Origin: Cohnella laeviribosi DSM 21336
Lineage (GTDB): Bacteria; Bacillota; Bacilli; Paenibacillales; Paenibacillaceae
NCBI RefSeq assembly: GCF_000378425.1
Contig: NZ_KB899825.1
Location: 1-64,000 of the forward strand
Direction of reading: 5' to 3'
DNA: 64,000 nt
Shown: piece after piece, positions 3,666 to 19,664 of the stretch
Layout of the letters: every line of letters begins with the position of its first letter
Numbering within the stretch: the first letter of the stretch is position 1
Notes under the pieces: generated by a model
Database searches by the model: none
Seen by the model: only the letters and a program-made list of their open reading frames with translations
Told to the model about the DNA's origin: nothing
Position numbers and translations under genes: made by a program

Positions 3666-3782
3666 CCCCGGCCTTTTTTCCCCGCTTCTTTAGCTCCTCT
3701 CCACAACCTGTTTCCTCTGCCATCTGTTGTCGGCCGAATCGCTCCTTTAATCCCCCGCATTTTAAGCGATAAGGAGGTCATC

Positions 3783-4919: not shown

Positions 4920-5569
4920 ACGGTTCGTTATGGGAGCAACTGATCAGGCAACTCGGCATGCGTTGGCAAGACTTGATTGTATCCGTAGTTCAACATATTG
5001 AACTTGTCTTTTTCTCCATGATCATCGCCATCGCCTTGGGCGTACCGCTGGGAATCCTTATCACACGCTTTCCGCGCCTGAGGAATTGGGTCCTGGGAAC
5101 GGCCGGCATTTTACAGACAATTCCGAGTCTCGCCCTGCTCGGATTTATGATCCCGTTGCTTGGAATCGGCACGCAAACCGCTGTTGCGGCGCTGTTTCTT
5201 TATTCTCTGCTTCCCATTATCCGAAACACATTTACCGGAATCCAGGATGTGGACAAATCCGTTATTGAGGCGGCCAGAGGGATGGGAATGACAGACCAGC
5301 AAATATTGTTCAAAGTCGAACTCCCCCTTGCTTTGTCGGTGATCATGGCCGGAATCAGGACCGCCACCGTCATCAACGTGGGAACGGCAACACTGGCCGC
5401 GTTTATCGGCGCAGGAGGTCTGGGGGATTTTATTTTTCTCGGGATATCCCGGAATATCGATTCCCTTGTGCTGATCGGCGCATTTCCCGCCGCTCTGCTC
5501 GCTCTGCTGTTCGACTTTGTTCTGGGGTTGCTGGAACGCTGGACAATACCGCGAGGCTTGAAAATATAA
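4916..5569 (+). CDS. opuCB: Osmoprotectant ABC transporter permease
   Basis: This 217-residue membrane permease has about five or six hydrophobic segments and the cytoplasmic EAA loop (EAARGMGMTDQQILFKVELP) that docks with the ATPase. It fits the OpuCB/OpuBB family in length and sequence. Its start overlaps the opuCA stop by four bases, so translation is probably coupled. Bacillus and Listeria OpuC operons normally carry a second permease, OpuCD, after the binding protein. None is present here, so this permease may act as a homodimer or pair with a product from elsewhere. Confidence 0.93.
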   Translation: MNGSLWEQLIRQLGMRWQDLIVSVVQHIELVFFSMIIAIALGVPLGILITRFPRLRNWVLGTAGILQTIPSLALLGFMIPLLGIGTQTAVAALFLYSLLPIIRNTFTGIQDVDKSVIEAARGMGMTDQQILFKVELPLALSVIMAGIRTATVINVGTATLAAFIGAGGLGDFIFLGISRNIDSLVLIGAFPAALLALLFDFVLGLLERWTIPRGLKI

Positions 5570-5608
5570 GGATCTATTTTTCATTCATTGGGAGGTTTAT
5601 GGATAAAA

Positions 5609-6499
5609 ATGAAAAAATGGCTGTTGGCACTTCTGGCGGTCGTTTCCTTGATTGGTTTAAGCGCTTGTAATTCAAATGGGAAAAACCAAGAAAAAATTAC
5701 GGTAGGTTCCAAAAACTTTACCGAAAATATCATTTTGGCGCATATGATGGCCGATATCATTGAAGCGAAGACCAGTCTAAAGGTAGAGAGGAAAGTCAAT
5801 CTCGGCGGATCCAATGTAGCGTGGAAAGCGTTGCAGAACAACGATATCCAACTGTATCCGGATTATACAGGAACCATCGTCGCCAATTATTATCAGGAAA
5901 AAACGGGGACGTCCCAGGAAACGTTGGACAAGACCCGGGAGCTTCTGAAGAAGGACAACCTGACGTTCACCGAACCATTCGGCTTCAACAACACGTATAC
6001 GTTGGCGGTGACGCAGGAAACGGCGGAAAAATACAACTTGAAAACCTTTAGCGATTTGGCCAAGGTGTCCAAGGACTTGATCCTGGGGTGCGAATTTGAA
6101 TTCGAGGACCGTCCCGACGGCTATCTCGGCCTGCAAAAGACATACAACATGACGTTCAAGGATGTTGTCGGAATGGATCATGGTATCATGTATCGCTCTC
6201 TGGCTGATAAAAAAGTGGATGTTATCGATGCTTATTCTACCGACGGACAGATCAAAGTTTACGATCTGCACATTTTGCAAGACGACAAGTCATTCTTCCC
6301 TCCTTATGACGCGGGGTCGCTCGTGCGTAACGACGTCCTGGAAAAATATCCGGAAATCGAAAGCGCGTTAAATGAGCTCGGAGGAATAATCAGCGAATCC
6401 GATATGCAGAATTTGAACGCGAAAGTGGATTCTGAAGGATTGAAAGCACAGGATGTTGCACACGACTTTTTGGTGGAAAAGGGCCTCATCGAAAACTAG
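5609..6499 (+). CDS. opuCC: Osmoprotectant-binding lipoprotein
   Basis: This 296-residue substrate-binding protein starts with a lipoprotein signal ending LIGLSAC (lipidated Cys20), so it should be anchored outside the membrane. The mature part begins KITVGSKNFTEN and contains VNLGGSNVAWKAL and LYPDYTGTIVANYY, hallmarks of the OpuAC-like quaternary-amine binders. The ATG at 5609 was chosen over an upstream in-frame TTG because it opens a canonical signal peptide (MKKWLLALLAVV) and GGGAGG lies upstream. It ends the opuC operon, which has no second permease. Confidence 0.93.
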   Translation: MKKWLLALLAVVSLIGLSACNSNGKNQEKITVGSKNFTENIILAHMMADIIEAKTSLKVERKVNLGGSNVAWKALQNNDIQLYPDYTGTIVANYYQEKTGTSQETLDKTRELLKKDNLTFTEPFGFNNTYTLAVTQETAEKYNLKTFSDLAKVSKDLILGCEFEFEDRPDGYLGLQKTYNMTFKDVVGMDHGIMYRSLADKKVDVIDAYSTDGQIKVYDLHILQDDKSFFPPYDAGSLVRNDVLEKYPEIESALNELGGIISESDMQNLNAKVDSEGLKAQDVAHDFLVEKGLIEN

Positions 6500-6862
6500 C
6501 ATGTTTGAAACAGGCAGGAGATCCCGGTACTATTTTTTCTGTAGTACCGAGCTCATGCCATCAGCCGATTGGTTTGAACCTGCTGTGTTTTCAAAAAAAA
6601 GCCGCGCTCATTCTGGAGATGCTGCAACAGGAGAATGCCTCTTTCCCACAATTATCCGTTTGGGGTCGGTTCGTTCTTCAAAGTGAGCGTCTCAGTATGA
6701 TTATATTCTGACAATATATCACACTACTGACGCGGAGAAGAGCTGTAAATGCGATCTATCTATTTTCCATGTATGTATAAATTGCAATGAGACGCTCCGC
6801 CGCGATGCTGGGAACAGTGCAGGGGTTGGGGAGCAGGACTTTTATCCGGGAGGTGATACAAC
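6500..6862 (+). other. Non-coding gap between opuCC and mscS
   Basis: No convincing gene. A perfect 8-bp inverted repeat CGGTACTA/TAGTACCG (6525-6532 and 6542-6549) with T-rich loop lies soon after opuCC and may end its transcript, though no T-run follows it. A TG-GTATAA-like -10 (TATAAA at 6776-6781) is a weak promoter candidate for mscS. Short open frames here show no recognisable protein. Confidence 0.4.
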
Positions 6863-7780
6863 TTGGAATGGGGGAGAGAATTGGGTATCCACGAATACTT
6901 TACCTGGGATTTCTGGGCGCCGCAAACTGTCCTTCTTTTAAAAAAGCTGGGTGCAGTCTCTTTAATCGTCGCACTCACATGGCTTGCTCTTCGCATTCGA
7001 AAAATTCTTATATCGCGTATTTTTGTGCTCACGCGATTGGACATCAAGCAAAAAAATACATTGGAGTCGCTGCTTCTCTCCTTGTCGAGATATGTGCTCT
7101 TTATTATTGCGTTTCTGATGTGCCTAAGCAATCTTGGACTAGAGGTGGGACCGATCATCGCCGGAGCCGGCGTCGTCGGTTTGGCAGTTGGATTCGGGGC
7201 GCAATCGCTAGTCAAGGATTTGATTACCGGCTTTTTCATCATTTTTGAAGATCAATTTTCCGTCGGCGATTATGTATCCATTAACAATGGACAAATAACC
7301 GGCACGGTGGTCAGTGTCGGCCTGCGCGCCACCAAAATCCGAACCTGGGCCCAACATGTCGTCGTCATTCAAAACTCGGAAATCCGCATCAGCGAAAACT
7401 ACAACCGCGAAAAAATGCGGGCGATCATCAACGTGACGGTTCCCTATGAAACGGATCCGGCAGATGTCGAAACTGCAGTGAATCGCATGTCCGAGCGACT
7501 GTTGAAGGAGATGCCCCACCTTTTTTTGCGCGACGCAGCCGGAAATGTGATTGAACCGCCGCAACTGTACGGCATTACTGATGTGGAAAACCAGGCGCTA
7601 GGTGCGAAATATACGGTTGTCAGCCTAGTGAATGACCAGCATTATTGGACGGCTTGCAAAGAAATCCGAAAATTGCTTTTGCATGAACTGAAAGAGCTCG
7701 GTATTCCGATCTCTTATCCCCGACGCATTGAGCGTATCGAAAATGAATTCAAATACGGTCACGTTTCATCGACTAGTTGA
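6863..7780 (+). CDS. Small-conductance mechanosensitive channel (MscS family)
   Basis: This 305-residue channel protein should open under membrane tension and release solutes on hypo-osmotic shock. It has an N-terminal membrane segment (about 24-45), a second near 78-98 and the glycine/alanine-rich pore helix IIAGAGVVGLAVGFGAQSL. The conserved start of the beta domain (FEDQFSVGDYV) and a C-terminal alpha/beta domain follow. The start is TTG at 6863, supported by an excellent GGGAGGTGAT site at the right distance. It lies next to an osmolyte importer, so the pair covers uptake and release. The frame is intact. Confidence 0.92.
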   Translation: MEWGRELGIHEYFTWDFWAPQTVLLLKKLGAVSLIVALTWLALRIRKILISRIFVLTRLDIKQKNTLESLLLSLSRYVLFIIAFLMCLSNLGLEVGPIIAGAGVVGLAVGFGAQSLVKDLITGFFIIFEDQFSVGDYVSINNGQITGTVVSVGLRATKIRTWAQHVVVIQNSEIRISENYNREKMRAIINVTVPYETDPADVETAVNRMSERLLKEMPHLFLRDAAGNVIEPPQLYGITDVENQALGAKYTVVSLVNDQHYWTACKEIRKLLLHELKELGIPISYPRRIERIENEFKYGHVSSTS

Positions 7781-8071
7781 ATTTTCCCCTTCTGTTCTTT
7801 AACAGGATGGCATGTGAATAAGTTGATGGTGCCCCATACTCGCGAGTCAAGTGTCCTTTTCGGAATGTCTCTTGGCGGCACGGATATTCGCAGCAACTGA
7901 CATGGATGTTTATTCAGCGACTACACTGAAAGCTTTGAACAAGAGATAAAAGGGCGTACAGGTCGGTCCGGCGATCGGGTGTGCGCCCAGGAAACTGCGC
8001 CTAGAATAAAAAGTGGACACCGCGTTAAGTGAACCTTGATAATAGGCATAACGATGAAAGAGGTGTCCATT

Positions 8072-8368
8072 ATGGGAGAGCAACGCCAGCACTACAATGA
8101 AGAATTCAAAAGGCAAGCCGTGAAGTATGTTCAAGAACAGACAAAGACTTTACCTGAGATCGCGGATGAATTGAACATCCCAGAAGGAACGTTGCGAAAT
8201 TGGATGACGAAATATCGTTCGTTTGAAAACGAGCCGATTGTCAATTCAGAAAAAGTCCGCCAACTGGAAGAACGTCTCAAGGCTGGTGAACGAGAGAAGC
8301 AAGACCTCGCGGAGGAGTTGGCCATCTTAAAAAAGGCGCTGCACATCTTCAGCAAAGAAAGGAACTAA
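8072..8368 (+). CDS. IS3-family transposase OrfA
   Basis: A 98-residue protein with the IS3 OrfA pattern: N-terminal helix-turn-helix (YNEEFKRQAVKYVQEQ... IPEGTLRNWMTKYR) and a C-terminal leucine-zipper-like coiled coil (RQLEERLKAGEREKQDLAEE). Length is typical. The ATG at 8072 follows GAAAGAGGTG. The end (ILKKALHIFSKERN) is where OrfA usually frameshifts into OrfB. Only the first OrfB residues follow, so the element is dead. Confidence 0.85.
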   Translation: MGEQRQHYNEEFKRQAVKYVQEQTKTLPEIADELNIPEGTLRNWMTKYRSFENEPIVNSEKVRQLEERLKAGEREKQDLAEELAILKKALHIFSKERN

Positions 8369-8369
8369 G

Positions 8370-8412
8370 GTTCCAATTTATCGAAAATCATCGCTCCGAA
8401 TTTCGATTGGAG
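8370..8412 (+). pseudogene. IS3 OrfB N-terminal stub
   Basis: Directly after orfA the sequence encodes FQFIENHRSEFRLE, the usual opening of an IS3 OrfB transposase (integrase-core protein). Similarity stops after about 14 residues at a break point, so the copy was truncated here. Confidence 0.55.
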
Positions 8413-8454
8413 AATCGCCGTATACCGTTTCTACCGTGGAATCCAGATCCAAGA

Positions 8455-8541
8455 TCAGTTCGGAGAAAGACGGTACATACGTTCGCATTGATTGGGCGTC
8501 ATGTACCCAATGGCAGAGTGAATCCGTTTCCCATTGTAGAA
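8455..8541 (-). pseudogene. IS3 OrfB C-terminal fragment, opposite strand
   Basis: The minus strand encodes FYNGKRIHSAIGYMTPNQCE followed by eight residues and a stop, the standard C-terminal end of an IS3-family OrfB. It points against the OrfA on the plus strand, so the two are ends of different copies or of one copy after inversion. Nothing upstream of FYNGK matches OrfB. Confidence 0.65.
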
Positions 8542-8697
8542 ACAAGGTCCAGCGCCCGCGCAAAGCGGGGTTCTCGTTGCGCTTCCAATATCGCGCTTTT
8601 GGTTCAGACACAACGGACGGGAAGGCGATCCGGTTTGAGCCGCTCTTACCGTTGCAGGTTCTGAAACCATAACTGCTTTTCATGTTCGGCTCGGATT

Positions 8698-9348
8698 TTG
8701 CTCTTCTTGCCTTTGGCCGGAATGCTCACACGAAAAGGGATCGGTTACGCGGGCAAGCTGAAGTGGACCGAACGTCTGGCGAAGGAAGCGGCGCGTTGCC
8801 GTTACTGGAAGCGATATGTCGAGGATGAGGAGTGGGTCATCGAGGGGATCACGCTTCTGTACAAGGCCACCTCGTGGAAGAAGTACCGGCAGGTGGTGAT
8901 GATCCGCAAGGCGCAGGTGGCCGATGACGGCCAGGGGCGGCTGATTTACGACGAGGACTGGCAGTATGAGGCGATCGTGACCAACCTGGAATGGGAACCG
9001 ATCGATCTTTGGCGTTTTTACAACCAGCGCTGCTGCATGGAAAATCACATCAAGGAAGCCAAGGACGGGTTTTCCATCGATCGGATTGCGACGGGAGATT
9101 TTGCGGCCAACGAGCTGGATCTGCTGATCAAACTATTGGCTTACAACCTCTATGAGCGGTTCAAGCGGGACTGTTGCGAGCCGGTTCATCAGGGTTATAC
9201 GATCGCCAGGTTTCGGCTGGAGTTTTTCCAATGTGCGGCGACGATCGTCCGGCACAGCCGCAGGCTTATCCTTAAACTGGCTTGTGACTTTCCGTACCGC
9301 CATGTGTGGAAGCGAATGGAGGCGCGGCTGGCGGCGATATCTGGATAG
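8698..9348 (+). pseudogene. IS1380-family transposase, 5'-truncated
   Basis: About 216 residues match the C-terminal half of an IS1380-type DDE transposase, including the catalytic-Glu region FYNQRCCMENHIKEAKDGFS and the following LLIKLLAYNLYERFK. A full protein is about 440 residues, so the N-terminal half with the first two Asp residues is missing. The left break lies near 8700, next to the IS3 remnant. The ATG is not a genuine start. Confidence 0.75.
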
Positions 9349-9530
9349 AGAATGCCACAATTTTACATGGAAAACGAAAAGCCTGGTGATGGGGAGGGGG
9401 GGAATTGTCTTTCTATGCAGATGAGGAGTTGTTTGACTGGATGATTTCCCTGTTATTTACAGAGTTCTCTGCCCTCATCACCTGTCAATTTGCCATAACA
9501 ACGGGCTTTCGAAATTTGGGTTCATACATC

Positions 9531-10638
9531 CTAGTTCATTTTTGTTTTACCGCCTGTATCCTTCAGGAACCACTTGAGCAGGGGAGGCACTACGACGGTT
9601 GTGATGACAATGACCAAAATGATCGTCGTGTACAACTCTGACGGAAGCAACCTGGAATTCAGGCCCAGCGCCGCAATAATCAGAGCGACTTCACCGCGCG
9701 AAACCATTCCCGAGCCGATCAGTTTGGATGCAATAGCCAAAACGGACAATATGAAAAGGGGCAGCAGTTGTTCAGACAATCCGTCGAACGAAACGGTCAG
9801 ACCGATACTGGCAAGAAAGACCGGGACAAATAACGTATAAGCAACAGATTCCATTTTTTCTCGATCTGCTGTTTGAATTCGGTTCTCGAAATCGCAAGTC
9901 CGGCAGCAAAAACGCCGATAATACCGGCAACTCCAAAATATTCCGCGGCGAAGGACAACATCAGACACAAAAATACGCTCATACTGAGGACAGGTTCGGT
10001 CACCCGCATATGGGCGGACTTCCGCAAGACAAAGGGAATGCCCTTCCAGACCATCATAACCACCAGGATTATAAATAAAATCTTCTTGCCAATCACCCAT
10101 GCCAGACTGATTTCGTTGGCTGTCAACAACCCAACCATAATCGTAAGACCGAACACGACCAGAATATCGTCAACAATCGCTGCCCCCAATACGGCATGCT
10201 TTCCCGGCTGTTCAATTTCCCCAGTTCCCGAAACGTTTGAACCGATATGCTCACGGACGTTGCAGAAAGCAGTAATCCGAGAAATATTGCATGTCCTTGT
10301 TCCATCCCAAGCCATATCCCGACGATATAACCCCCCGCAAGCGGAAACAGAATTCCTCCCACCGCCACAGCAACGGAGGCATTACGGTTTTCGTCCAATG
10401 CTTTCAGGTCAGTTTCCAGTCCAGCCAAAAACATTAATAGAAGAACGCCAATCTGGGCAAAAACCTCCACAATATCGGAGTGCTTTACCCAGCCCGCCAC
10501 GGCTGGACCAATCAATACGCCTGCCAAAAGTTTTCCCAAAACCGAAGGTTGCCCGAACCGGGCGGCAAGATCTCCTGCAAGTTTGGCGGCAACGAGAATA
10601 ATGGCCAACTCCAATAAGGATTCCATGGCATGATTCAT
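9531..10638 (-). pseudogene. CPA2-type Na+/H+ antiporter gene with two -1 frameshifts
   Basis: Joined across two breaks, the minus strand encodes about 369 residues of a Kef/GerN/NapA-like monovalent cation:proton antiporter. It starts MNHAMESLLELAII with AAAGGAGCG upstream and continues through FGQPSVLGKLLAGVLIGPA, LSATSVSISVQTFRELGKL, AAIVDDILVVFGL (the paired acidic residues expected for ion binding) and AGLAISRTEF, ending with a short charged tail. One A is missing (minus strand) in the AAA run at 10200-10202 and one in the A6 run at 9854-9859. Restoring each A gives a continuous, family-like protein. Either the gene is dead or the assembly has homopolymer errors. Confidence 0.8.
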
Positions 10639-10787
10639 TCTATCGCTCCTTTTGTATTTCCGGCTGAAATCTTGTCTCAGCCCCGTGAGACTTTGCATAG
10701 TAACGACCTTCGTGTTCTTGATACCTATTCTGAATAAACCATTCACTCTTCGATTCGTCGCAAGTTCGCAACCCCCCCTTCTGTCCG

Positions 10788-10831
10788 AAATAAAGAAAAA
10801 ATAAGAGAAGCCCGTCAATGACAGGCTCCTC
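10788..10831 (-). terminator. Intrinsic terminator in the antiporter leader
   Basis: On the minus strand, a 12-bp RNA stem (GAGGAGCCUGUC/GACGGGCUUCUC, two G-U pairs, 3-base loop) is followed by a U-rich run. It starts only about 30 bases after the predicted transcription start at about 10,863, so it could attenuate the antiporter transcript or end a short RNA. Confidence 0.7.
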
Positions 10832-10869
10832 CACATGAAACGGTATGAATTTTTCAATACACGAGAAAA

Positions 10870-10898
10870 ATTATAGGTTACTTTCCGTTTACAGTCAA
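10870..10898 (-). promoter_or_regulatory. Promoter facing the antiporter
   Basis: On the minus strand: -35 TTGACT (10898-10893), 17-bp spacer, -10 TATAAT (10875-10870). This near-consensus sigma-A promoter gives a leader of about 225 bases that contains the terminator at 10788-10831. Confidence 0.75.
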
Positions 10899-10946
10899 GG
10901 AAGATGAGAAAATCCATTTGCAATGCGTTGCCCACTTATCCACAAG

Positions 10947-11178
10947 TTATTCCCGGATCATCGCCAATAAATAAAACGCTCCGTCTTAGGCGGTGTACAC
11001 GCGACCAAAGTTGGGGAAGCTTTGCGCGGTGAGGAACAATCCCGTACAGAACCGGGATCATCCCTCCCAGCACGCCGACCCGGAGGGATCTGAATTCCCT
11101 CAACCACAGCCAGACCAGACATCCGCCGCCAATTTCCGCCAGTCCTGCCGCCAAAAACAAAACAATCGCCTTCGCCAT
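10947..11178 (-). pseudogene. YnfA/UPF0060-family membrane protein, broken
   Basis: The minus strand starts MAKAIVLFLAAGLAEIGGGC with the small UPF0060 membrane-protein pattern (about 108 residues, four helices expected). After LYGIVP the frame is lost. The family's next motif (QSFPNFGRVYTA) is found one frame over, and there a TAA at 10986-10988 replaces the usual Tyr before the last helix (DGAFYLLAMIRE). So the gene carries a frameshift and a nonsense codon and is dead. It lies just downstream of the thyA remnant. Confidence 0.7.
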
Positions 11179-11194
11179 GGTTTCCCCCTTGAAA

Positions 11195-11635
11195 TTAAAT
11201 GGCGACCGGCACCTTGATCGCCGGATGATGGCGGTAATCGACAAACCCGAAATCTTCGTACACATAATCGAATATGCTGGGCGGCTTCCGCTTGATGACG
11301 AGCCTCGGCAACGGAAACGGTTCGCGGCTCAACTGCAGTTTCGCCTGCTCCAGATGGTTACTGTACAGATGCACATCCCCGCCGGACCAGATGAGTTCGC
11401 CCGGTTCCAGATCGCATTGCTGCGCCATCATATGCGTCAGCAGCGCGTACTCGGCTATGTTAAAAGGCAACCCCAGAAACACATCCACCGAACGCATCGT
11501 CAGCATGCACGACAGTTTGCCCGCCGAAACGTAACACTGAAACAACACATGGCACGGCGGCAACTTCATCCGTTCGATGTCCGCCACTTTCCAGGCGCTT
11601 ACGATATGGCGGGAGGGAGATCCCCTGTTCATCAA
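11195..11635 (-). pseudogene. thyA: Thymidylate synthase, C-terminal half only
   Basis: This matches the last 140 or so residues of ThyA (usual length about 264). The active-site region [12 protein letters not shown] holds the catalytic Cys, and [17 protein letters not shown]-like, [12 protein letters not shown] and the end IKVPVAI are also present. The first about 125 residues are gone; upstream, in another frame, is the N-terminal part of a tyrosine recombinase. ThyA makes dTMP from dUMP with methylene-tetrahydrofolate. This fragment lacks the N-terminal arginine loop and should be inactive, so the cell must have another thymidylate synthase. The junction lies around 11,620-11,635. Confidence 0.85.
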
Positions 11636-11822
11636 ACATTTTTTTCATCCGGACCAGGTTCTCTTCGTAAAACTGAATTGTACGTCCAGATAAGTTTTTT
11701 GCCCGACATTCCGTAAGAAAGGACTTTACCAGATCCGCAAAATCGGCGGGGCGTTTCGGGATGGCGGTATTTACAGCGGCCGCTTTGACAATGTTTTTCC
11801 GACGCGTTACGGGCCTGTCCAT
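11620..11822 (-). pseudogene. Second tyrosine recombinase, only the N-terminal SAM-like domain left
   Basis: The minus strand starts MDRPVTRRKNIVK at 11822, four bases before the upstream recombinase ends, with GGGGAGGTG in the end of that gene. It encodes a phage-integrase SAM-like domain (FADLVKSFLTECRAKNLS... [17 protein letters not shown]), then runs into thyA sequence. No catalytic domain remains. The tight overlap shows that two recombinases once formed a translationally coupled pair, as in some Tn554-like and tandem-recombinase elements. Confidence 0.75.
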
Positions 11823-11823
11823 G

Positions 11824-12801
11824 TTATTGCACCTCCCCTTCCAAATCCTCGGCAAGATGTTCGACCGGGCTGCATTTTTCGTGCTGTTTGTGAAGGTCTT
11901 TGCTGAACAGTTCCACGTAATAACGGGTCATTTCCAACGTCGTATGCCCCAACAGATATTGCAGGGTAAAGATGTCGCCGCCGTTTATTAAAAAGAATTT
12001 CGCAAAAGTGTGGCGGAACGTATGGGCGGAACCTTGCACCCCTTTGATCCCGGCCTTTTGGCAGTGGCCGCTGATCATTTGGATGGTACCATACCGTTGG
12101 AAAGGTTGATGGAAGACGGTGACCCAGAGGCCATCAAACTCGTGTTCCCCCCGTTCCTCCAAATACTCCTTTAAGGCGTTCACACATGTTTGCTGAATGG
12201 GGACGACGCGGAACTTTCGTCCTTTGCCCATAGGAATGTGAATGGTTTTCTCCTCAAAGTCGATATGGGAAATTTTCATTTGCGTTAATTCATTGACCCG
12301 CATGCCCGTATCCAGCAAAACCAGCATCATGGTATAATCGCGCAGTCCGGTAAACGTTGTGCGATCCGGTTGGCGCAAGATGGCCTGGACTTGCTCTTCG
12401 GTGAAAGTGTGGACCATTTTGCGCTCACTTTTAATGGGTTTCAGACCTTCCGCGAGGTTTGCGTCCAAGATGCCTTCAAGATGGAGAAATTTGAAAAATT
12501 GCTGGCAAGTCCGTATTTTTCCGTTGATCGTATTCGGTTTGAATCCCTGTTCCAGCATTTCGTTGACCATCCGTACAGTGAGATCTTTTGGGGTGAGGGT
12601 ATTTAGGGAAAGCCCCCATTGGTCAAGATCGCGTTGCAGGGACCGTAAATACGTATGATAACCTTCGATGGTCATCGGAGAAAGATTTCGGAACCGGCAG
12701 TCCATCAGAAACAGGCGGACGGCTTCGCTGAATTGGGCCCGTGAGGAAACGTCGGCGGGCAAGGAAAGTTTTACACTGGCATCGGCTTTGTTCTTCGACA
12801 C
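11824..12801 (-). CDS. Tyrosine recombinase / integrase
   Basis: This 325-residue site-specific recombinase is complete. It has an N-terminal SAM-like DNA-binding domain (about 22-112) and a C-terminal catalytic domain with R168 (TGMRVNE), a GKGRK loop near 192-196, H260-x-x-R263 (AHTFRHTF), H286 (LLGHTT) and the nucleophile Y295 (RYYVEL). The GTG start at 12801 has GGGAGGTTG before it. It is followed by the truncated second recombinase. The 3' piece of a tRNA-Leu lies about 240 bp upstream, the usual place for an integrase beside its attachment site. The frame is intact, so it could be active. Confidence 0.9.
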   Translation of the reverse strand: MSKNKADASVKLSLPADVSSRAQFSEAVRLFLMDCRFRNLSPMTIEGYHTYLRSLQRDLDQWGLSLNTLTPKDLTVRMVNEMLEQGFKPNTINGKIRTCQQFFKFLHLEGILDANLAEGLKPIKSERKMVHTFTEEQVQAILRQPDRTTFTGLRDYTMMLVLLDTGMRVNELTQMKISHIDFEEKTIHIPMGKGRKFRVVPIQQTCVNALKEYLEERGEHEFDGLWVTVFHQPFQRYGTIQMISGHCQKAGIKGVQGSAHTFRHTFAKFFLINGGDIFTLQYLLGHTTLEMTRYYVELFSKDLHKQHEKCSPVEHLAEDLEGEVQ

Positions 12802-12845
12802 TTTTCGTCAACCTCCCGTTGGATTGGGAGTTTGGCGCGGTCAAA

Positions 12846-12881
12846 GTTGTGCGAAGCTGCGGGGGGTTGGCTTCGTACAAC
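12846..12881. repeat. 12-bp near-perfect inverted repeat upstream of the recombinase
   Basis: GTTGTGCGAAGC (12846-12857) and GCTTCGTACAAC (12870-12881) match as inverted repeats at 11 of 12 positions. The repeat lies 45 bp upstream of the recombinase start and may be an arm- or core-type binding site or part of a rearranged att region. Confidence 0.5.
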
Positions 12882-13037
12882 CCGGGGAAGTACGAGCGCA
12901 CAAAACCCTTCGCAAAATCGCGGGACGTATTTTTCGATTGGAAAAATTTACAATCCCTGAAATCCCTTATGTCACAAGGTTTCTCGGATTCTTGCGAACG
13001 TTTGTTCACCTCCTTGCACCTCCTCAAACTCAAAATC

Positions 13038-13079
13038 GCGTCCGAAAGGGTGTGGGTTCGAGTCCCTCCACCGGCACCA
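13038..13079 (+). pseudogene. 3' half of a tRNA-Leu gene (att-type fragment)
   Basis: The stretch holds a variable arm (GTCCGAAAGGGT), a T-loop GGGTTCGAGTCCC and the acceptor strand CACCGGC followed by ACCA. No 5' half precedes it. The acceptor strand is exactly complementary to GCCGGTG, the start of the tRNA-Leu 5' half at 18442, and the two pieces add up to about 85 bases. One T-stem pair is a U-U mismatch. It is the end of a tRNA gene left by integration or rearrangement. Confidence 0.8.
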
Positions 13080-13099
13080 TTACGTATATTGGATAACCC

Positions 13100-13119
13100 A
13101 GCCCGATGGGCTTTTTTTA
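13100..13119 (+). terminator. Terminator after the tRNA-Leu 3' half
   Basis: AGCCC (13100-13104), 3-base loop, GGGCT, then a T-run. It came along with the tRNA 3' half, which suggests this is the tRNA gene's natural downstream flank. Confidence 0.7.
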
Positions 13120-13224
13120 TTTTTAACCTTGTTTTCCCTAGAATGCTCGATACTGCAAACAGGAAATTGCCAGCATTTGTCGAAATATATCCGTGATTGA
13201 CGTAGAGGTTCGGGGGTTTGGGAA

Positions 13225-16200
13225 GTGAGCGGTAATCCGTCCGTGCATCATAAATTGGAGATAGCTCGACAAGAATTATTGGACCTTGGACTGAAGAATT
13301 CTTTGCTGAATTACCGTCTTTTGAAATCCCGTGGTTTGGAAGTGGTAGGCGGGTCACCGCTGGATGTTTTTGGGATTCTAGTTCGCAATCAAAAATCGGT
13401 CACCTTCATGCCCGTGGCGGAAGATGAAAACGAATTGCTGCCATCTGAAGCGGAAGCTGAAGAAACTGAAAACGAAATGCCGTCTTCGGAGGAGGATTTT
13501 TCGCTATCCCAACAGCGCGTTCCTGAATCCAAGTTGAAAACGAATTTGACCGAAAAACAATTGCAGGCAAGGTTGTTAAATACATATTACACAGCCCGGA
13601 CTTTTATCGAAGAACAGGGCGTTAACATTTTGTATATGGCTCTTGGAATGGTGCACTGGTACGAATCCGAAAGCAGTCAAGAGGTTCGAAAGGCTCCCCT
13701 TATTTTGATCCCGGTGAAACTGGAACGGACGAATGCGCGGGAACGGTTTAAGGTGTCTTATACCGAAGAAGACATCGGATCCAACTTGTCCCTGATTGCG
13801 AAAGCGAAAGCGGAATTCGGGATTTCCATTCCGCCTCTTCCGGAAGAAGAGGAGATCGATGTCGTCCAGTATTTCCTTCAGGTGGAAGAAGCCATTCAAA
13901 GCGAGCCTCGGTGGACGGTGGACAAACAGGCCATCGTTTTGGGGTTTTTTTCATTCGGCAAGTTTTTGATGTACCGGGATTTGGACGTAACGAACTGGCC
14001 GGAAGAAAGCAAACCTACCGATCATGCCATCCTGCTCAGTTTGTTAAATGACGGATTTTTGGAACCGGCTTCCGTCATTCAAGATGACGATTTTATGGAT
14101 CCGCATGTTTCATTTCATGATGTGTATCATGTGGTGGATGCGGACAGCTCGCAGTTGCAGGCCATCCTCGATGTGAACAGCGGCCGGAATTTGGTCATCC
14201 AAGGCCCTCCGGGAACGGGGAAATCGCAGACGATTACCAATATTATTGCCGAAGCGGTAGGCCGCGGGAAAACGGTGTTATTCGTTTCGGAGAAAATGGC
14301 TGCCCTGGAAGTGGTCAAACGGCGGCTGGATCATGTCGGATTGGGGGATGCCTGTCTCGAATTACACAGCCATAAGACCAACAAAAAAACGCTCCTCAGC
14401 GAATTGGCCAGAACGTTGGAATTGGGCAAACCGAAAGTGAAAGAGTTTGACGACCAGGTCAAAGTGCTGGAGGACTTTCGTCGACGGCTTAATGATTATT
14501 GCGCGGCGATTCATACACCGGTGGGGGAAAGCGGACTCACCCCTTATCAACTGTTAGGCGAACTGGTGCGGTTCAGGCACAAGATTGGTGACGACTTTAT
14601 TTTCCCCAGCCTGGGAATCAACGGGATGGAGAAATGGGATCGCTCTATGTTCCAACGCCGTCTTCTGCTCTTGGAGGAGCTCCAGAAACTGCTGGGCACG
14701 ATGGGAATTCCGAAAGAACATCCGTTTTGGGGAAGCAAGCGAACCGTTTTTTTGCCAACGGAAGAGGGCAAGTTACGGGAGACGGTGAACAAAGCGAGAC
14801 AGGCGTTCGAAACATTAAAGGAATCTTCCCGTGCGTTGGCGCAAATGCTGCATGTGGAAACTCCTCAGGACGTAAAAGAAGTCCAAATGGTCGGTGTTGT
14901 CGCAAGAAAAATTCTGGAAGCGCCGGATTTGCAAGGGGTCGAGATCGGTGCGGACGAATGGACGCAACAAGCTGAAGAAATCCAACGTCTCGTTTCGTCG
15001 GGTTTGAAATTTTCGGAATTACGGCACCGATATAGGGACATTCTGATTCCTGAAGCGTGGGATCAGAATCTGCTTGATGTCCGGCAAACGCTCATAATGT
15101 ATCAGAAAAAATGGTGGCGATGGTTTTCGGGATCTTATCGGAAAGCAAGGAATCAGCTGATTCGTTTATATAAGGATATCTCTTATCAAAAAAAACTGGA
15201 TGCCCTTCAAGTTGTGGAGGACATCATTGAAGCACGGCGTCAGCAACAATGTATTCAAAGCATGGATGCCTTGGGGGGATCCTGTTTTGGCGTGCACTGG
15301 AAGAAAGAACAATCGGATTGGGCTCGCATCAACGAGTGGGTTCAATGGTTGTGTCCATTGCATAAAGAGATCCAAACCGGCCGATTACCGGGCTGGATCA
15401 TTCCTTTGTTAACCGCACCCGTGGATCGTACGGAATTGGAAAACAGCATGGCGACAGTCAGACAACATTTGGAGCAGTTCCGGGAATGGGTTGCAGAGTT
15501 GGCCAACCTGTTGGAGTTCGACACCTCTATTGCATTCGGGAATTCTGAGCCACTCTCGGATCAACTGTTTCAAGAGTTGGATGAATGGTTTCAGCGTTGG
15601 ATGGACCATGCCGATTCGATACAAACGCTGGCTTCCTACAACTTGCTGTGCGACACATGCAGCAAGGAAGAGATGGGGGCCGTTGTGTCGCTGAGCCACA
15701 CTTGGGAACTCGCCTCGCAGCAATTAACCAATCTTTTTCGCTTTACATGGTATGAGGCGTTGATCAAGCGAGCCTTTCAGGAACGATCCGTATTGGCGCA
15801 GTTTGACGGGGATCGGCATTGCCATGTCGTGAAAACGTTTCAGGAATTGGATCGTACTCATTTGGAACATAACAAGATGAAACTGGCCGAAATCCATTGG
15901 AGAAGGATTCCGCAATATGATGCAGGAGGACAGCTAGGGGTCCTGAAACGCGAATTTGAAAAGAAAAGGGGACATTTGCCCATCCGCCGGCTCATGGAAA
16001 ATGCGGGTTATGCGATACAAGCCCTCAAACCGGTTTTTATGATGGGGCCACTCTCGATCGCGACATATCTTCCGCCGGGAAGTTTGAAGTTTGACCTGGT
16101 TATATTTGATGAAGCGAGTCAGGTCAAGCCTGTGGATGCGTTCGGAGCCATTCTTCGGGGCAAACAGGTGGTGGTCGTTGGTGACAGCAAACAAATGCCA

Positions 16201-17949
16201 CCGACCCATTTCTTCGACGCTCTCACCAAAGGGGAAGAAAACGAAGAGGATGACACCGTTGGCGATATGGAAAGTATCCTGGGGCTCTTTCTGGCTCAAA
16301 ATGCGCCGCGGCGGATGCTCCGTTGGCATTATCGAAGTCGGCACGAATCGTTAATCGCGGTTTCCAACTTGGAGTTTTACGATAACCGGCTCGTCGTTTT
16401 TCCAAGTCCTGACTTGCAAAAAGACCGTTTGGGCCTTGTGTTTCATTATCTGCCACACACCCGGTATGACCGGGGGCGCAGCCGAACCAATATGGAAGAA
16501 GCCAAAGCCGTCGCACAGGCGGTCATGGCGCATGCCAAGCGGAATCCCCATTTGACATTGGGTGTCGTCGCATTTAGTGTAGCGCAAATGCAGGCGATTC
16601 AAGATCAGCTGGAACTTTTGCGCCGGGAAAACCCGTCGTGCGAATCGTTTTTCCAAGCGCATCCCCATGAACCGTTCTTTGTGAAAAATTTGGAAAATGT
16701 CCAGGGCGACGAACGCGACGTGATGTTCATCAGCATCGGTTACGGCAAAACGGAAGACGGGTACGTATCCATGGATTTCGGAGCGCTGAATCGCAACGGA
16801 GGGGAGAGGAGACTGAACGTGCTGATCACCCGTGCTCGTTTGCGTTGCGAAGTGTTTACCAACATCACGGACGATGATATCGATTTAAGCCGCACGCAAG
16901 CCCAAGGAATGAAAGCCTTGAAAACATTCCTCAAATACGCCCGGACCGGAATCCTGGATATTCCCAAGGCCACGGACAGGGCGGCGGATTCGCCATTTGA
17001 GGAAGCGGTGGCGGAAGCGATCCTTTCGATGGGATATAAAGTCAGAAAACAGGTAGGATCCGGAGGATTTTACATTGACTTGGCTGTGGTGGATCCGGAA
17101 TCGCCTGGTCGATACGTGTTGGGTGTGGAATGCGATGGAGCTACCTATCACAGCGCCAGGTCAGCGCGGGATCGTGATCGGTTACGGCAACAAGTGCTGG
17201 AAGGACTGGGGTGGAACATTCACCGGATATGGAGTACAGACTGGTTCCGTCATCCGAACCGGGAACGAAAACGGCTAGCTGAAGCCATAGAGAAGGCTCG
17301 ACTCCATATAATATCAAATATTTCAAAGGAAGTTCGGAAAGAAGAAGCGAATGTTTTCTCTTTGGAACGGAACGAAAGCACGCGTAAAGAACAACAGGCT
17401 GTAACCCCTTATCAATGTGCCACTTTACGAATCGATACGGTCGGTTACGAATTTCATAAGATTCCAACCCACCAGATTGCTTCCTGGGTCTTGGAAGTGG
17501 TGAAAGTCGAGAGCCCTGTGCATATTCATGAAGTTCTAAAAAGAATTTGTGAGGCGGCGGGTATTAAACGGGCAGGCAATCGCATTCAGGAAGCTATCCA
17601 AAAGGCATGCAGATCGCTTGTCCGAACGGGAAAAGTTGTAATCAAAGAAGATTTTCTCTGGTTAGAAGCAATGAATCGTCCCGATATTCGGGACCGCAGC
17701 AACCTTCCTGCTTCATCCAAAAAACTGGAATTCGTTTCAACGGAGGAGATCCGGGTTGCCATCGAAAAGGTGATTTCCGATGCATTTGGCATGAAAGAAG
17801 ATGAAATCGCCCCTTCAGTTTGCAGATTATTCGGTTTTATGCGAGTAACGGAGGAGATGAGGACTCGAATCGAAAAAAATCTAGCCAAGATGATTGAAGA
17901 GAAATTAATTGATAAGCAAGGTAATTATTGCATGTTGAAAGAAACCTAG
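13225..17949 (+). CDS. DUF4011 / SF1 helicase / Vsr-like nuclease / DUF3320 protein, putative defence gene
   Basis: This 1574-residue protein has an N-terminal DUF4011-like region (about 1-300) with an early acidic stretch. The split SF1 helicase has Walker A GPPGTGKS (327-334), Walker B FDEAS (D962, E963), GDSKQMPP near 987 and LITRAR (from about 1200). A Vsr/MTES_1575-like nuclease has D1285 (YIDLAVVD) and E1302/D1304 (GVECDGATYH), then a DUF3320-like C-terminus. Such proteins are thought to unwind and cut DNA, and the architecture has been linked to phage defence; activity here is inference. The start is GTG with a G-rich site. It stands alone between the two tRNA-Leu halves, with A+T-rich composition unlike the core genome. 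Confidence 0.85.
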   Translation: MSGNPSVHHKLEIARQELLDLGLKNSLLNYRLLKSRGLEVVGGSPLDVFGILVRNQKSVTFMPVAEDENELLPSEAEAEETENEMPSSEEDFSLSQQRVPESKLKTNLTEKQLQARLLNTYYTARTFIEEQGVNILYMALGMVHWYESESSQEVRKAPLILIPVKLERTNARERFKVSYTEEDIGSNLSLIAKAKAEFGISIPPLPEEEEIDVVQYFLQVEEAIQSEPRWTVDKQAIVLGFFSFGKFLMYRDLDVTNWPEESKPTDHAILLSLLNDGFLEPASVIQDDDFMDPHVSFHDVYHVVDADSSQLQAILDVNSGRNLVIQGPPGTGKSQTITNIIAEAVGRGKTVLFVSEKMAALEVVKRRLDHVGLGDACLELHSHKTNKKTLLSELARTLELGKPKVKEFDDQVKVLEDFRRRLNDYCAAIHTPVGESGLTPYQLLGELVRFRHKIGDDFIFPSLGINGMEKWDRSMFQRRLLLLEELQKLLGTMGIPKEHPFWGSKRTVFLPTEEGKLRETVNKARQAFETLKESSRALAQMLHVETPQDVKEVQMVGVVARKILEAPDLQGVEIGADEWTQQAEEIQRLVSSGLKFSELRHRYRDILIPEAWDQNLLDVRQTLIMYQKKWWRWFSGSYRKARNQLIRLYKDISYQKKLDALQVVEDIIEARRQQQCIQSMDALGGSCFGVHWKKEQSDWARINEWVQWLCPLHKEIQTGRLPGWIIPLLTAPVDRTELENSMATVRQHLEQFREWVAELANLLEFDTSIAFGNSEPLSDQLFQELDEWFQRWMDHADSIQTLASYNLLCDTCSKEEMGAVVSLSHTWELASQQLTNLFRFTWYEALIKRAFQERSVLAQFDGDRHCHVVKTFQELDRTHLEHNKMKLAEIHWRRIPQYDAGGQLGVLKREFEKKRGHLPIRRLMENAGYAIQALKPVFMMGPLSIATYLPPGSLKFDLVIFDEASQVKPVDAFGAILRGKQVVVVGDSKQMPPTHFFDALTKGEENEEDDTVGDMESILGLFLAQNAPRRMLRWHYRSRHESLIAVSNLEFYDNRLVVFPSPDLQKDRLGLVFHYLPHTRYDRGRSRTNMEEAKAVAQAVMAHAKRNPHLTLGVVAFSVAQMQAIQDQLELLRRENPSCESFFQAHPHEPFFVKNLENVQGDERDVMFISIGYGKTEDGYVSMDFGALNRNGGERRLNVLITRARLRCEVFTNITDDDIDLSRTQAQGMKALKTFLKYARTGILDIPKATDRAADSPFEEAVAEAILSMGYKVRKQVGSGGFYIDLAVVDPESPGRYVLGVECDGATYHSARSARDRDRLRQQVLEGLGWNIHRIWSTDWFRHPNRERKRLAEAIEKARLHIISNISKEVRKEEANVFSLERNESTRKEQQAVTPYQCATLRIDTVGYEFHKIPTHQIASWVLEVVKVESPVHIHEVLKRICEAAGIKRAGNRIQEAIQKACRSLVRTGKVVIKEDFLWLEAMNRPDIRDRSNLPASSKKLEFVSTEEIRVAIEKVISDAFGMKEDEIAPSVCRLFGFMRVTEEMRTRIEKNLAKMIEEKLIDKQGNYCMLKET

Positions 17950-18010
17950 CTTGGAAGACTTGGTTTCATCGATTTTAGCACATCAAAATGGGCTGCGATT
18001 GTATTCCTAA

Positions 18011-18300
18011 CCCAACTTTCGACTCGAATGCCCGCAAACCTTTGATATGACTGGATTCATATTTTAACTTCGGTCACTACAACCTTCATTTTTCTTGGAA
18101 TTTCAGTGGTTTTTTTGCCGTTTCCAGTATCCCAGAATTTTCAGGGTTGTCAATGGAAAGGGCTGGGGATTTAGGACACTACATTTTAAAAATCACTAAA
18201 ATCAAAAACCTACCCCCAGTAAAATCAAGGGCTTTCGGGACTGAATTTCCCGGAATATGGGAAAAAATATTTTTTGGCTAAATTTTTGTCGAAAGTTGGG
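18011..18300. mobile_element. MITE-like element, 290 bp
   Basis: Perfect 13-bp terminal inverted repeats, CCCAACTTTCGAC (18011-18023) and GTCGAAAGTTGGG (18288-18300), are flanked by the 4-bp direct repeat CTAA (18007-18010 and 18301-18304). The interior is A+T-rich with no gene. This is the signature of a non-autonomous transposon. Ends beginning CC with a 4-bp target duplication fit the IS1380 family, whose transposase remnant lies at 8698-9348, but no matching end was found beside that remnant. Confidence 0.8.
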
Positions 18301-18441
18301 CTAAAAGACCAGATCGGTTGATGGGCGAAACTGGCCGTGCTGCCGGATATCGTGACGGGAAAGAGAATGACAATATTCGCCCGAATACACCTATTATTTG
18401 CGCCTGTAATAATTACCGTAGCGTTTTACGCCCGGTAATAT

Positions 18442-18487
18442 GCCGGTGTGGCGGAATTGGCAGACGCGCTGGATTCAGGTTTTAGCG
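18442..18487 (+). pseudogene. 5' half of a tRNA-Leu(CAG) gene
   Basis: The acceptor strand GCCGGTG, D arm (GCGGAATTGGCAGACGC) and complete anticodon arm are present: stem CTGGA (18469-18473), loop with anticodon CAG (18476-18478), stem TTTAG. After 18487 no variable arm, T arm or matching acceptor strand (CACCGGC) follows. The missing 3' half is at 13038-13079, to the left, so the gene is split and permuted. Confidence 0.85.
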
Positions 18488-18700
18488 AGGCTCGAATTCA
18501 ACGCGCCGAATGCCGAAGAAGCCGCACCACATAAGGCTTCTTGGGAAAATGCCACCGCGCTAGTCTCTTGCAAGCCGCACTTAACACGGATTTTTCGAGC
18601 CGTTTTTGATCCCCGCGCTTTTGTCGGTGATTAGCGCGGAAATATTTAGCGCGGCTCGTGTGTCGAGATTACCTCGACTAAATGAAAGCAGTCAAGTTAA
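18488..18700 (+). other. Hairpin-dense non-coding stretch between two tRNA-Leu sequences
   Basis: In about 200 bp there are three perfect hairpins: AAGAAGCC/GGCTTCTT (18516-18523, 18535-18542); an outer stem CGAGCCG/CGGCTCG (18596-18602, 18652-18658) enclosing CCGCGC/GCGCGG (18613-18618, 18634-18639); and GTCGAG/CTCGAC (18662-18667, 18673-18678). TTAGCGCGG is repeated at 18631 and 18647. No gene and no known RNA family is recognised. It could be the end of a mobile element, a recombination site or a structured RNA. Confidence 0.5.
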
Positions 18701-18710
18701 TATTTACCAT

Positions 18711-18798
18711 GCGGTTGTGGCGGAATTGGCAGACGCGCACGGTTCAGGTCCGTGTGGGCTAACACCCCGTGGAGGTTCGAGTCCTCTCAACCGCACCA
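18711..18798 (+). tRNA. tRNA-Leu(CAG)
   Basis: A complete class II tRNA: acceptor GCGGTTG/CAACCGC, D arm, anticodon stem CACGG/CCGTG with loop TTCAGGT (anticodon CAG at 18745-18747), long variable arm, T arm GGTTCGAGTCC, and encoded CCA. It reads CUG codons. Confidence 0.97.
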
Positions 18799-18812
18799 TA
18801 CATATTATTACG

Positions 18813-18842
18813 CCCTTCAAGTCTGGAGGGTTTTATTATATT
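18813..18842 (+). terminator. Terminator of tRNA-Leu(CAG)
   Basis: CCCTTC (18813-18818), loop AAGTCT, GGAGGG (18825-18830), then TTTTATTATATT. The T-rich end is itself the left arm of a perfect 10-bp inverted repeat, TTATTATATT/AATATAATAA (18833-18842, 18851-18860), which abuts the broken edge of yyaL. Confidence 0.75.
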
Positions 18843-18862
18843 CTTTGAACAATATAATAATG

Positions 18863-19664
18863 TGCCATTGGTGTCGCGTGATGGAACGCGAGTCGTTCGA
18901 GGACGAGGAAGTGGCCCGGCTGCTGAACGAATCGTTCGTATCGATCAAAGTCGACCGGGAGGAACGTCCGGATATCGACCATCTTTATATGGCGGTGTGC
19001 CAGGCGTTTACGGGGAGCGGGGGCTGGCCGCTGACCGTGGTGCTGACGCCGGACCAGCAGCCTTTTTTTGCCGGGACCTATTTTCCGAACCGGAGGACGA
19101 TGGGTCGGTACGGGCTGATGGAGATATTGGACCGGATCCGCGAGATGTGGAAGGAGAATCCGGACGAGCTGATCCGGTCCGGACGGGAGCTGGAGGAGGC
19201 GCTGAACAGGCGCCAGAAGGCGGGCATAGATGCGAAATGGGACGACCGGTTCGCGCACGTCACCTACGAAACGTATGCGAATTCGTTCGATTCGGAGTAT
19301 GGCGGGTTTGGGGGTGCGCCGAAATTCCCGTCGCCGCACAATCTTTTGTTCCTGATGGCGTACAGCCGGCGGTTCGGGGAGCGCAAGGCGCTGGACATGG
19401 CCCTTCGCACGCTGGACGCCATGGCGATGGGGGGCATCCGCGACCATATCGGCGGGGGCTTCGCGCGCGGGAGAAGAGGGAGAGGCGTTGCGGAAGGCGT
19501 TTCCGGCGCTGGCGGACAAAACCGCGCTGGACGGCAGGGCAACGGCCTACGCGTGCCGCAGCTTTGCCTGCCAGGCTCCCGTCCATACGGCCGAGCAATT
19601 GGCCGCGCAGCTTGACGAAGTGCCCATTCGTGCGGGGGATGCGGCGGGACCCTCAACCGGTTGA
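18863..19664 (+). pseudogene. yyaL: YyaL (thioredoxin-domain DUF255 protein), N-truncated with internal deletion
   Basis: The frame opens at the thioredoxin-like CHWC motif and runs through ESFEDEEVA, VDREERPDID, GGWPLTVVLTPDQQPFFAGT and APKFPSPHNLLFL to DHIGGGFAR. It then jumps, in another frame from about 19470, straight to the family's C-terminal end (YACRSFACQAPVHTAEQLAA), stopping at 19662-19664. About 45 N-terminal residues are lost at the tRNA-side break and roughly 300 or more in the middle, where the six-hairpin domain should be. YyaL homologues are about 680 residues. The remnant cannot be functional. Confidence 0.85.

Follow-up and report, generated by a model that had tools for sequence, protein, structure and literature searches.

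We analyzed the first 64,000 nucleotides of contig C18 of Cohnella laeviribosi DSM 21336 (C18:1-64000, hereafter the window), centering on a helicase-nuclease gene that lies between two incomplete tRNA-Leu genes. The genome comprises 4.48 Mb in 102 contigs; C-numbers denote its contigs unless stated otherwise, and G-numbers denote the genomes compared with it, of which G020, G154 and G222 match C. fermenti, P. timonensis and P. cymbidii, respectively, by sequence identity. The gene (13225..17949, plus strand) is the single cargo gene that an earlier reading of this DNA, the initial annotation, had placed between the tRNA halves: it encodes 1574 amino acids with DUF4011, SF1 helicase, MTES_1575 nuclease and DUF3320 regions (Pfam), and PADLOC and NCBIfam assign it to the ProA / PDC-S37 family. 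It is followed by a piece that resembles a miniature inverted-repeat transposable element (MITE; 18008..18303), as had also been noted, with 16-nt inverted ends that are 94% complementary; a search of this genome at E≤0.001 gave no further copy.

On the left, the gene is preceded by the 3' half of a tRNA-Leu including its CCA (13029..13079, plus strand), beginning with the 7-nt anticodon loop CTCAAAA (13029..13035, plus strand) and followed by a flank with a terminator-like hairpin (13080..13125, plus strand). A 3' half with terminator had been annotated here, and its identity is now clear: the 52 nt at 13028-13079 match an intact tRNA-Leu(CAA) on C66 with no differences (E 2e-20), and the tRNA part is also identical to the tRNA-Leu(CAA) of C79. 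C43 has a similar flank, with a match of 83% over 13028-13123. Immediately upstream lies what we call the right end (RE, the integrase side) of element A (12802..13028), and beyond it int1 (11824..12801, minus strand), the intact tyrosine recombinase reported earlier beside this edge (PF00589, E 1.7e-35). Residues R168, K193, H260, R263, H286 and Y295 of int1, which we take to be the catalytic set, are all invariant in an alignment of 4 sequences. A second tandem recombinase, int2, is represented by an N-terminal fragment of 70 amino acids (11613..11822, minus strand; tblastn with the int2 of C15, residues 1-70, 90% identity), truncated where it adjoins the C-terminal part of thyA (11195-11635, Pfam scan). 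Contig C15 holds a copy of window 11616-13080 that is 93.5% identical and covers int1 plus 230 bp before it; the RE itself is 93.6% identical, and the DNA likeness stops at 11616. The C15 RE adjoins a different tRNA-Leu(CAA) 3' half, with acceptor strand CACCAGC, from that adjoining the window RE.

On the right, 490 bp behind the helicase gene (the MITE included), lies the 5' half of a tRNA-Leu(CAG) (18442..18480, plus strand), as annotated, ending in the loop TTCAGGT (18474-18480); tRNA-Leu 5' halves of relatives match it. The loop is followed directly by the left end (LE) of a second element, B (18481..18710, plus strand, ∼230 bp), which aligns with the LEs of C66, C. fermenti (G020, of the same genus), G118, G052, G127 and G317: window 18438-18701 is 67% identical to the C66 LE, and TTTAGCG after the loop corresponds to the first bases of the conserved element end in the LE alignment. 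Behind the LE stands an intact tRNA-Leu(CAG) (18711..18798, plus strand; Rfam RF00005, 50.6 bits), the only tRNA that ARAGORN counts in the window, whose 3' part is found again at C79:206-263 (98%). The first DNA after this tRNA and its terminator is a gene remnant without its N-terminus (18857..19612, plus strand; PF03190 DUF255, profile 47-162 of 163, E 1.7e-50), which we presume to be yyaL-like.

The initial annotation took the two edges for halves of one tRNA-Leu(CAG), left behind when a circle was linearized inside its own tRNA, so that 13038-18487 would be a minimal mobile defence unit whose only cargo gene is the helicase. The order of 3' half, gene and 5' half agrees with such a circle; the acceptor strands (GCCGGTG and CACCGGC) are complementary, and joining the halves at a shared GCG gives a sequence that ARAGORN passes as tRNA-Leu(CAG). 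As proof of a single gene, however, the pairing is weak, because both acceptor strands are shared by the intact tRNA-Leu(CAA) genes on C66 and C79, and since ARAGORN passes all three joins tried, it is too permissive to decide among them. The halves themselves point to two isoacceptors: the loops differ (CTCAAAA, anticodon CAA, on the left; TTCAGGT, CAG, on the right), the anticodon-stem strands (CTGGA and TCGCG) pair at 3/5 positions, the left half is identical to intact tRNA-Leu(CAA) genes, and both edges are element ends, each of which is found elsewhere without its counterpart. We consider the single circle extremely unlikely. The segment as a mobile unit falls with it; the link between mobile defence and recombination within tRNA-Leu is retained, and the fallback that had been offered, two insertions breaking two tRNA-Leu genes, fits the data. 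If it is right, relatives might hold intact tRNA-Leu genes at both edges: the left tRNA is intact on C66 and C79 of this genome, but no relative with both edges intact was found.

The edges belong to a family of elements whose members are laid out, from left to right, as LE (about 220-290 bp), complete tRNA-Leu, cargo, int2 and int1, and RE. The two recombinases are of the tyrosine type and stand in tandem, encoded by the minus strand of the element, and the pair occurs on C66, C15, C46 and in relatives. Contig C66, read on its minus strand, contains a whole member of 6.6 kb: LE, tRNA-Leu(CAA), IetA, IetS, int2, int1 and RE, with another tRNA-Leu 3' half lying ∼250 bp from int1. In this element no third gene lies beside the int1/int2 pair; on C15, on C46, in G127 and in others a third recombinase on the opposite strand does. 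The insertion site of the C66 element is the end of a tRNA cluster (...Gly-Cys-Arg(ACG)), followed by a tRNA-Leu(CAA) 5' half, the LE stretch of ∼290 bp (94% identical on C79) and an intact tRNA-Leu(CAA) of other sequence. In relatives the same cluster ends with Arg(ACG) and an intact Leu(CAA) (8 loci examined of 29 fetched), providing the empty site, where this genome has instead Arg(ACG), 5' half, LE and tRNA. Downstream of the native tRNA-Leu(CAA), synteny gave one weak match only.

Further LEs with a tRNA-Leu behind them are present in G118 (CAG), G052 (TAG), G127 and G317 (CAA), C. fermenti (CAG, two), P. timonensis (G154; CAA) and G171 (TAG). Contig 32 of C. fermenti carries two members in tandem, LE-tRNA-TOTE-recombinases-RE followed by LE-tRNA-Wadjet-recombinases-RE, with cores at 50043, 56420 and 69678 and with the int1 of the first member in pieces. 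In G171 an apparent RE is joined to an LE around CTTAGGA. The order in P. timonensis is 5' half, LE, broken carried 5' half, ∼100 bp and intact tRNA. In G127 both halves of a split tRNA-Leu(CAA) are on the same contig in the right orientation, with 119 kb between them (its C1:2455850-2574958). C79 has, besides its LE, a CAG-type 3' half after 205 bp of presumed RE, and an older LE that is followed by decayed remains instead of a readable tRNA.

The alignment of 7 LEs, together with REs read by eye (the RE/tRNA boundary at the window, C15 and C66), places the crossover within the 7 nt of the anticodon loop. The target loops are CTCAAAA, TTCAGGT or CTTAGGA, and the anticodon in the LE core equals that of the tRNA behind it in 11/11 LEs with a readable tRNA (10 intact, 1 broken again): those of the window, C66, C79, G118, G052, G127, G317, C. 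fermenti (two), G154 and G171, the older LE of C79 being left out of this comparison. For Acidithiobacillus integrative conjugative elements, anticodon stem-loop DNA reportedly determines the recombination site, to judge by the title of a 2018 study by Castillo; those elements would be alike in integrating at an anticodon stem-loop and unlike in being conjugative.

The attachment site thus located lies within a host tRNA gene, which is not rebuilt on integration: one junction reads 5' half / LE and the opposite one RE / 3' half. Five split tRNA-Leu genes were reassembled from their outer halves, successfully in 5/5 genomes tried, the halves lying on one contig in G127 and on two contigs in the other four. 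Joining the C66 5' half to the C15 3' half gives 97.7% identity to intact tRNA genes of relatives, indicating that the native tRNA-Leu(CAA) of this genome is split, with its pieces on two contigs. The other rejoined genes match intact genes elsewhere at 100% (G127), 100% (G118), 100% (C. fermenti) and 95% (G052), each value, like our own, being the best among the fetched loci; the G118 join is uninformative, native and carried tRNA being nearly the same there. Three intact tRNA-Leu(CAA) genes were found in this genome (C43, C66, C79), all with a 3' half of the carried type, and no native-type intact copy was found with one D-arm pattern allowing three mismatches, which a divergent gene could escape. 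By the same kind of D-arm scan, with the same limit, G052 yielded a single tRNA-Leu(TAG), which is the carried copy.

These junctions also bear on whether the elements are ordinary tRNA-rebuilding islands, with LE and tRNA forming part of a native tandem tRNA pair. The more distant recombinase relatives fit such a view, in that 15/21 loci at about 31-41% identity to int1 (L152-L172) start within ∼300 bp of an intact tRNA-Leu on the same strand (anticodon CAA, GAG, TAA or CAG); that group is perhaps a tRNA-rebuilding sister group. The elements described here do not restore the target: the native halves stand at two junctions and rejoin only across the element, and the native and carried 3' halves differ at the junctions of one insertion (the C66 tRNA against the C15 half). 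Beyond its tRNA part, moreover, the C66 LE was found by BLAST in this genome only, among 60 relatives, one of which, C. fermenti, has a diverged LE that BLAST missed, and an LE motif described below is confined to genomes with int1. On these grounds (absence of the LE from relatives by BLAST, rejoining across the element, different 3' halves) a native tandem tRNA was dropped, and we regard tRNA-rebuilding islands as very improbable. An equally slight probability attaches to the LE being a separate mini-element of ∼270 bp that rebuilds the tRNA by adding a new 5' half to the chromosomal 3' half. The LE does lie directly before the tRNA, and the C66 LE has, by eye, a promoter-like TTGATT-17-TATAAT, of which a promoter scan across the window LE found no counterpart. 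However, the C66 tRNA behind the LE has a non-native 3' half, the native one lying behind the RE on C15; RE/LE junctions in C. fermenti and G171 place the LE at the end of larger elements; and the motif-bearing genomes all have int1 (7/7).

To place the family more broadly, we surveyed 392 genomes of the order. Recombinases of the int1 type (E≤1e-75) occur in 29/392, and among the strongest 18 places (E down to 5.3e-129) 9 have an RE adjoining a tRNA-Leu 3' half: C15, C18 and C66 of this genome, and one each in G317, G222 (P. cymbidii), G154, G127, G052 and G118. The last of the 18, in G171, runs off the contig end. Outside this survey the same junction was seen at L149 and L151 of C. fermenti and at L146, in a metagenome-assembled genome (MAG). 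A motif of the inner LE was derived from C66, G118, G052 and G127, the LEs of the window and C. fermenti also being taken into consideration, and was run over the same sample, in which C. fermenti is not included. It gave 8 matches in 7/392 genomes, against 0 for a backward control among the matches listed. All seven genomes are among the 29 with int1, and none among the 363 others (p 6e-9), a value to be read knowing that four of the seven are motif sources and non-independent and that G317 had been seen beforehand; G154 and G171 are new. An intact tRNA-Leu lies ≤80 bp downstream in 7/8 matches, and in the eighth (P. timonensis) that place is taken by a broken 5' half, the intact tRNA-Leu following 194 bp later; a tRNA-Leu 5' half lies 219-223 bp upstream in 6/8, the other two being the RE/LE junction of G171 and the older LE of C79. 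The window LE, with its longer spacer, is missed by the motif.

A phage or plasmid origin received no support from these comparisons. The LE motif has 0 matches in viral contigs, where three int relatives were found at 26-28% identity. Matches of int1 to phages and plasmids, and of the helicase to plasmids (a comparison with phages lay outside the search), are all below 60% identity, the top plasmid match of int1 being to Cohnella herbarum (45%), and such an origin was dropped on the strength of these database matches. The large open reading frames (ORFs) of the C66 element are IetA, IetS, int2 and int1, so that this element is, as far as seen, no temperate phage, though a PHROGs scan was not part of this comparison.

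The carried tRNAs are themselves targets in turn, and the sequences read as stacks of elements in several contigs. When 3' halves on the RE side were compared with carried tRNAs, 6/12 matched at 92-100%: those of the window, C79, C. fermenti L151, P. cymbidii, the MAG at L146 and G118, the last again uninformative. By this match to carried tRNAs the left half in the window is of the carried tRNA-Leu(CAA) type.

We inspected the cargo behind seven carried tRNAs, with no control set of native tRNA-Leu genes. Defence or conflict genes lie behind 5/7, TOTE being counted as defence-like by its Pfam name. They are IetA-IetS on C66 (PADLOC 4.5e-90 and 6.7e-114, both below the NCBIfam cut-offs, at 238.5 of 510 and 108.1 of 900), the TOTE primase-helicase in G052 and in C. 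fermenti element 2, Wadjet JetD and JetC in C. fermenti element 1, and a SIR2-like gene with a HATPase in G118 (partial by PADLOC, best 68 bits). The remaining two are an ORF without a Pfam family in G317 and the yyaL remnant of element B in the window. Two intervals are headed by a 3' half: that of C79, with a DUF5677 gene and an ORF, neither with a PADLOC match, and that of the window, with the ProA/PDC-S37 helicase.

The helicase scores 2083.6 bits against PADLOC PDC-S37 (profile 5-1542 of 1550, nearly end to end) and 1687.1 bits against the ProA model NF058533, above the curated cut-off of 1500; it covers only 355-1903 of the 1903 positions of that model. Against the Hhe model NF042953 it stays below the cut-off (1088.9 vs 2000). 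The left tRNA being a tRNA-Leu(CAA) of carried type, the helicase gene next to it probably headed the cargo of an older family member, and on what the sequences offer we lean towards regarding it as probable defence cargo of such a member.

Taken together, the interval between the tRNA halves is, with good confidence, the DNA that separates two inserted members of a single family of integrative elements, which bring a replacement tRNA-Leu. The architecture of the elements is evident from the sequences compared; the circular form and the crossover chemistry are proposed. In the circle, RE and LE would be joined around the 7-nt overlap that equals the anticodon loop of the target, with the anticodon stem perhaps serving as the flanking inverted repeat at the crossover. 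Integration would leave the tRNA 5' half and LE on one side and RE and the 3' half on the other; the broken target would never be rebuilt, and the carried tRNA of the same anticodon would substitute for it, provided that it is expressed and needed. This tRNA has the same loop and would thus offer a new target, so that later elements could land in or beside it and build stacks. In the window, element A (int1 and RE, the remainder presumably lost at the thyA junction) would have entered a carried-type tRNA-Leu(CAA) ahead of the helicase, and element B (LE and tRNA-Leu(CAG), the remainder lost or unrecognized) a tRNA-Leu(CAG) behind it; with both elements excised on paper, the order would be tRNA-Leu(CAA), helicase, MITE, tRNA-Leu(CAG).

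Several observations weigh against this interpretation or limit it. Neither element A nor element B is whole in the window, and the 3' half that should partner the window tRNA-Leu(CAG) 5' half was not found. Matches to the right flank occur in 32/37 genomes of the genus, this one included, and those listed for relatives cover the aldo/keto reductase and in no case the yyaL remnant, so that no empty site is available for the window itself. Among the strongest 18 int1 loci, 8/18 end not at a tRNA-Leu but at a GTATAAC inverted-repeat site (C46, G108 twice with only the beginning of the site visible, G057, G246, G224, G372 and G074). Two RE loops deviate: TTCAAGT on C79, and CTTAAAA in P. cymbidii, there with a CAA-like 3' half. 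The presumed RE of C79 lies on a 3.7-kb contig without a recombinase and has no BLAST similarity to other REs; neither has the RE of C66, though int1 adjoins it. The LEs of G127 and G317 are identical and hence not independent, and the 119-kb interval of G127, with three recombinases in one set near one end, need not be a single element.

The remaining difficulties concern the helicase, and they are the substance of a further alternative, in which the flanking tRNA-replacing elements are genuine and the helicase is an unrelated gene that lies between two tRNA-Leu genes by chance. No LE precedes the left tRNA half ahead of the helicase, and the right half lies 490 bp away from the gene, with the MITE in between. 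The recurrence of the helicase beside tRNA-Leu sequence, which the initial annotation had put forward as a check, did not materialize: 29/29 other homologue loci, mostly distant and with flanks of ≤∼1.5 kb, have no tRNA-Leu half or related recombinase, nor did these turn up in the 34 kb surrounding the nearest homologue (G008, 53%). Set against this are the carried type of the left tRNA, the defence or conflict genes behind most of the carried tRNAs inspected, and the score of the helicase above the cut-off of an anti-phage family. We regard a chance neighbor as possible but doubtful, and prefer the helicase as cargo of an older element.

Beyond the window, we think it somewhat probable that Cohnella and Paenibacillus relatives harbor non-phage elements of this kind, in which a tRNA-Leu is destroyed, the cell comes to depend on the carried tRNA, and defence genes are stacked and hard to lose.

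The closest known counterpart is tRNA-dependent lysogeny, in which mycobacteriophages (Fionnbharth and others) disrupt a tRNA gene of the host and supply a tRNA themselves (Guerrero-Bustamante and Hatfull 2024, PMC10865867); how widespread this is beyond phages of Actinobacteria is a question raised in that study. The likeness extends to a tyrosine integrase, attB in a host tRNA gene, a short common core, a tRNA that is not rebuilt, and an element-encoded tRNA of the same isotype that substitutes for it. The Cohnella-type elements differ in being, as far as seen, not phages, in having two tandem recombinases, in crossing over at the 7-nt anticodon loop with the tRNA beside the LE attachment end, in carrying anti-phage systems as cargo, and in the re-use of their tRNAs as targets. 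The need for the tRNA has been demonstrated for the phage (PMC10865867), where integrants lacking it reportedly become fewer or shift to secondary sites; in the Cohnella-type elements the carried tRNA may be needed in a similar way. Host tRNAs are also replaced by element-borne ones through prophages of Sinorhizobium meliloti (PMC11476347) and through Lj965 of Lactobacillus johnsonii (as cited in PMC10865867), which are, unlike the present elements, prophages. The tRNA-targeting islands collected by Islander (PMC4383910) share the tyrosine recombinase, the tDNA target and a displaced fragment at one end; they restore the tRNA gene, and the Cohnella-type elements do not. Tn554, RIT, GInt and SE (PMC10214605) share two or more tyrosine recombinases and target specificity, but the C66 element lacks a third gene beside the pair, a contrast that may not extend to members with a third recombinase on the opposite strand, and the main text of that source names no tRNA. 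Breakage and replacement of a tRNA is thus known for some phages, and here it is found in elements carrying anti-phage genes; among the open-licence literature matches listed, judged by title and the start of the abstract, none describes a non-phage, defence-carrying counterpart.

If this interpretation holds, the array would amount to addiction by a tRNA rather than a toxin, holding stacks of IetAS, TOTE, Wadjet, SIR2-like genes and the ProA helicase, and tRNA-dependent integration would extend beyond phages to defence-carrying islands. It would also provide a route of island growth in which every insertion supplies the next target, a sequence handle for new defence genes (LE with tRNA-Leu, RE with half tRNA), a potential tool for integration at targets chosen through a 7-nt loop, and a test case for a tRNA as addiction module. 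Programs that identify islands by way of a rebuilt tRNA may overlook such elements.

Several further observations were made along the way. The G+C content of the helicase gene is 49.1%, so that the A+T-richness claimed for the cargo holds relative to the whole window (57.5%) and not relative to the left flank (1-11600, 49.5%); near 18850 the content jumps from 49.5% in that flank and 48-49% in the helicase interval to 61% on the right side. Gene remnants (thyA, Na/H exchanger, yyaL) occur along both window flanks, and a c-di-AMP riboswitch (ydaO/yuaA leader, 82.5 bits) lies at 3438-3594. An Rfam scan of 12900-18850 at E≤1 gave only the tRNA and one mir-2 match below the gathering score, taken for chance, and a group I intron or spliced tRNA was dropped on this basis.

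The GTATAAC site looks like an integron attC site by eye. The sister class of the int1/int2 pair at such sites (C46 L138/L139, L259-L262, L264, L265, L270, L271) has in several cases a third recombinase on the opposite strand, and the pair on C46 adjoins PbeA/PbeC-type genes and methyltransferases. At two helicase-homologue loci (L031, 2450-7912 region, and L045; C36 of G017 and C49 of G002) the flank contains what we take to be a tmRNA-like 3' end, as for ssrA islands. The MAG contig at L146 is labelled Bdellovibrio, yet it carries a Paenibacillus-like element end and a tRNA-Leu half, and is probably mis-binned. The same ∼78 nt stand behind two different tRNA-Leu 3' ends, at the end of C79 (L054, 3635-3712) and inside C66 (L053, 485-562), which may reflect contigs overlapping in the assembly, a duplicated stretch or heterogeneity of the sequenced population. 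The tRNA-Leu(CAA) of C43 (L056, 6140-6222) looks chimeric, its 5' acceptor GCTGTCG pairing incompletely with the 3' CACCGGC. Finally, no LE separates a broken tRNA-Leu(CAG) 5' half in G118 (its C24; L286, 1495-1623) from the intact tRNA-Leu(CAG) that stands almost immediately after it.

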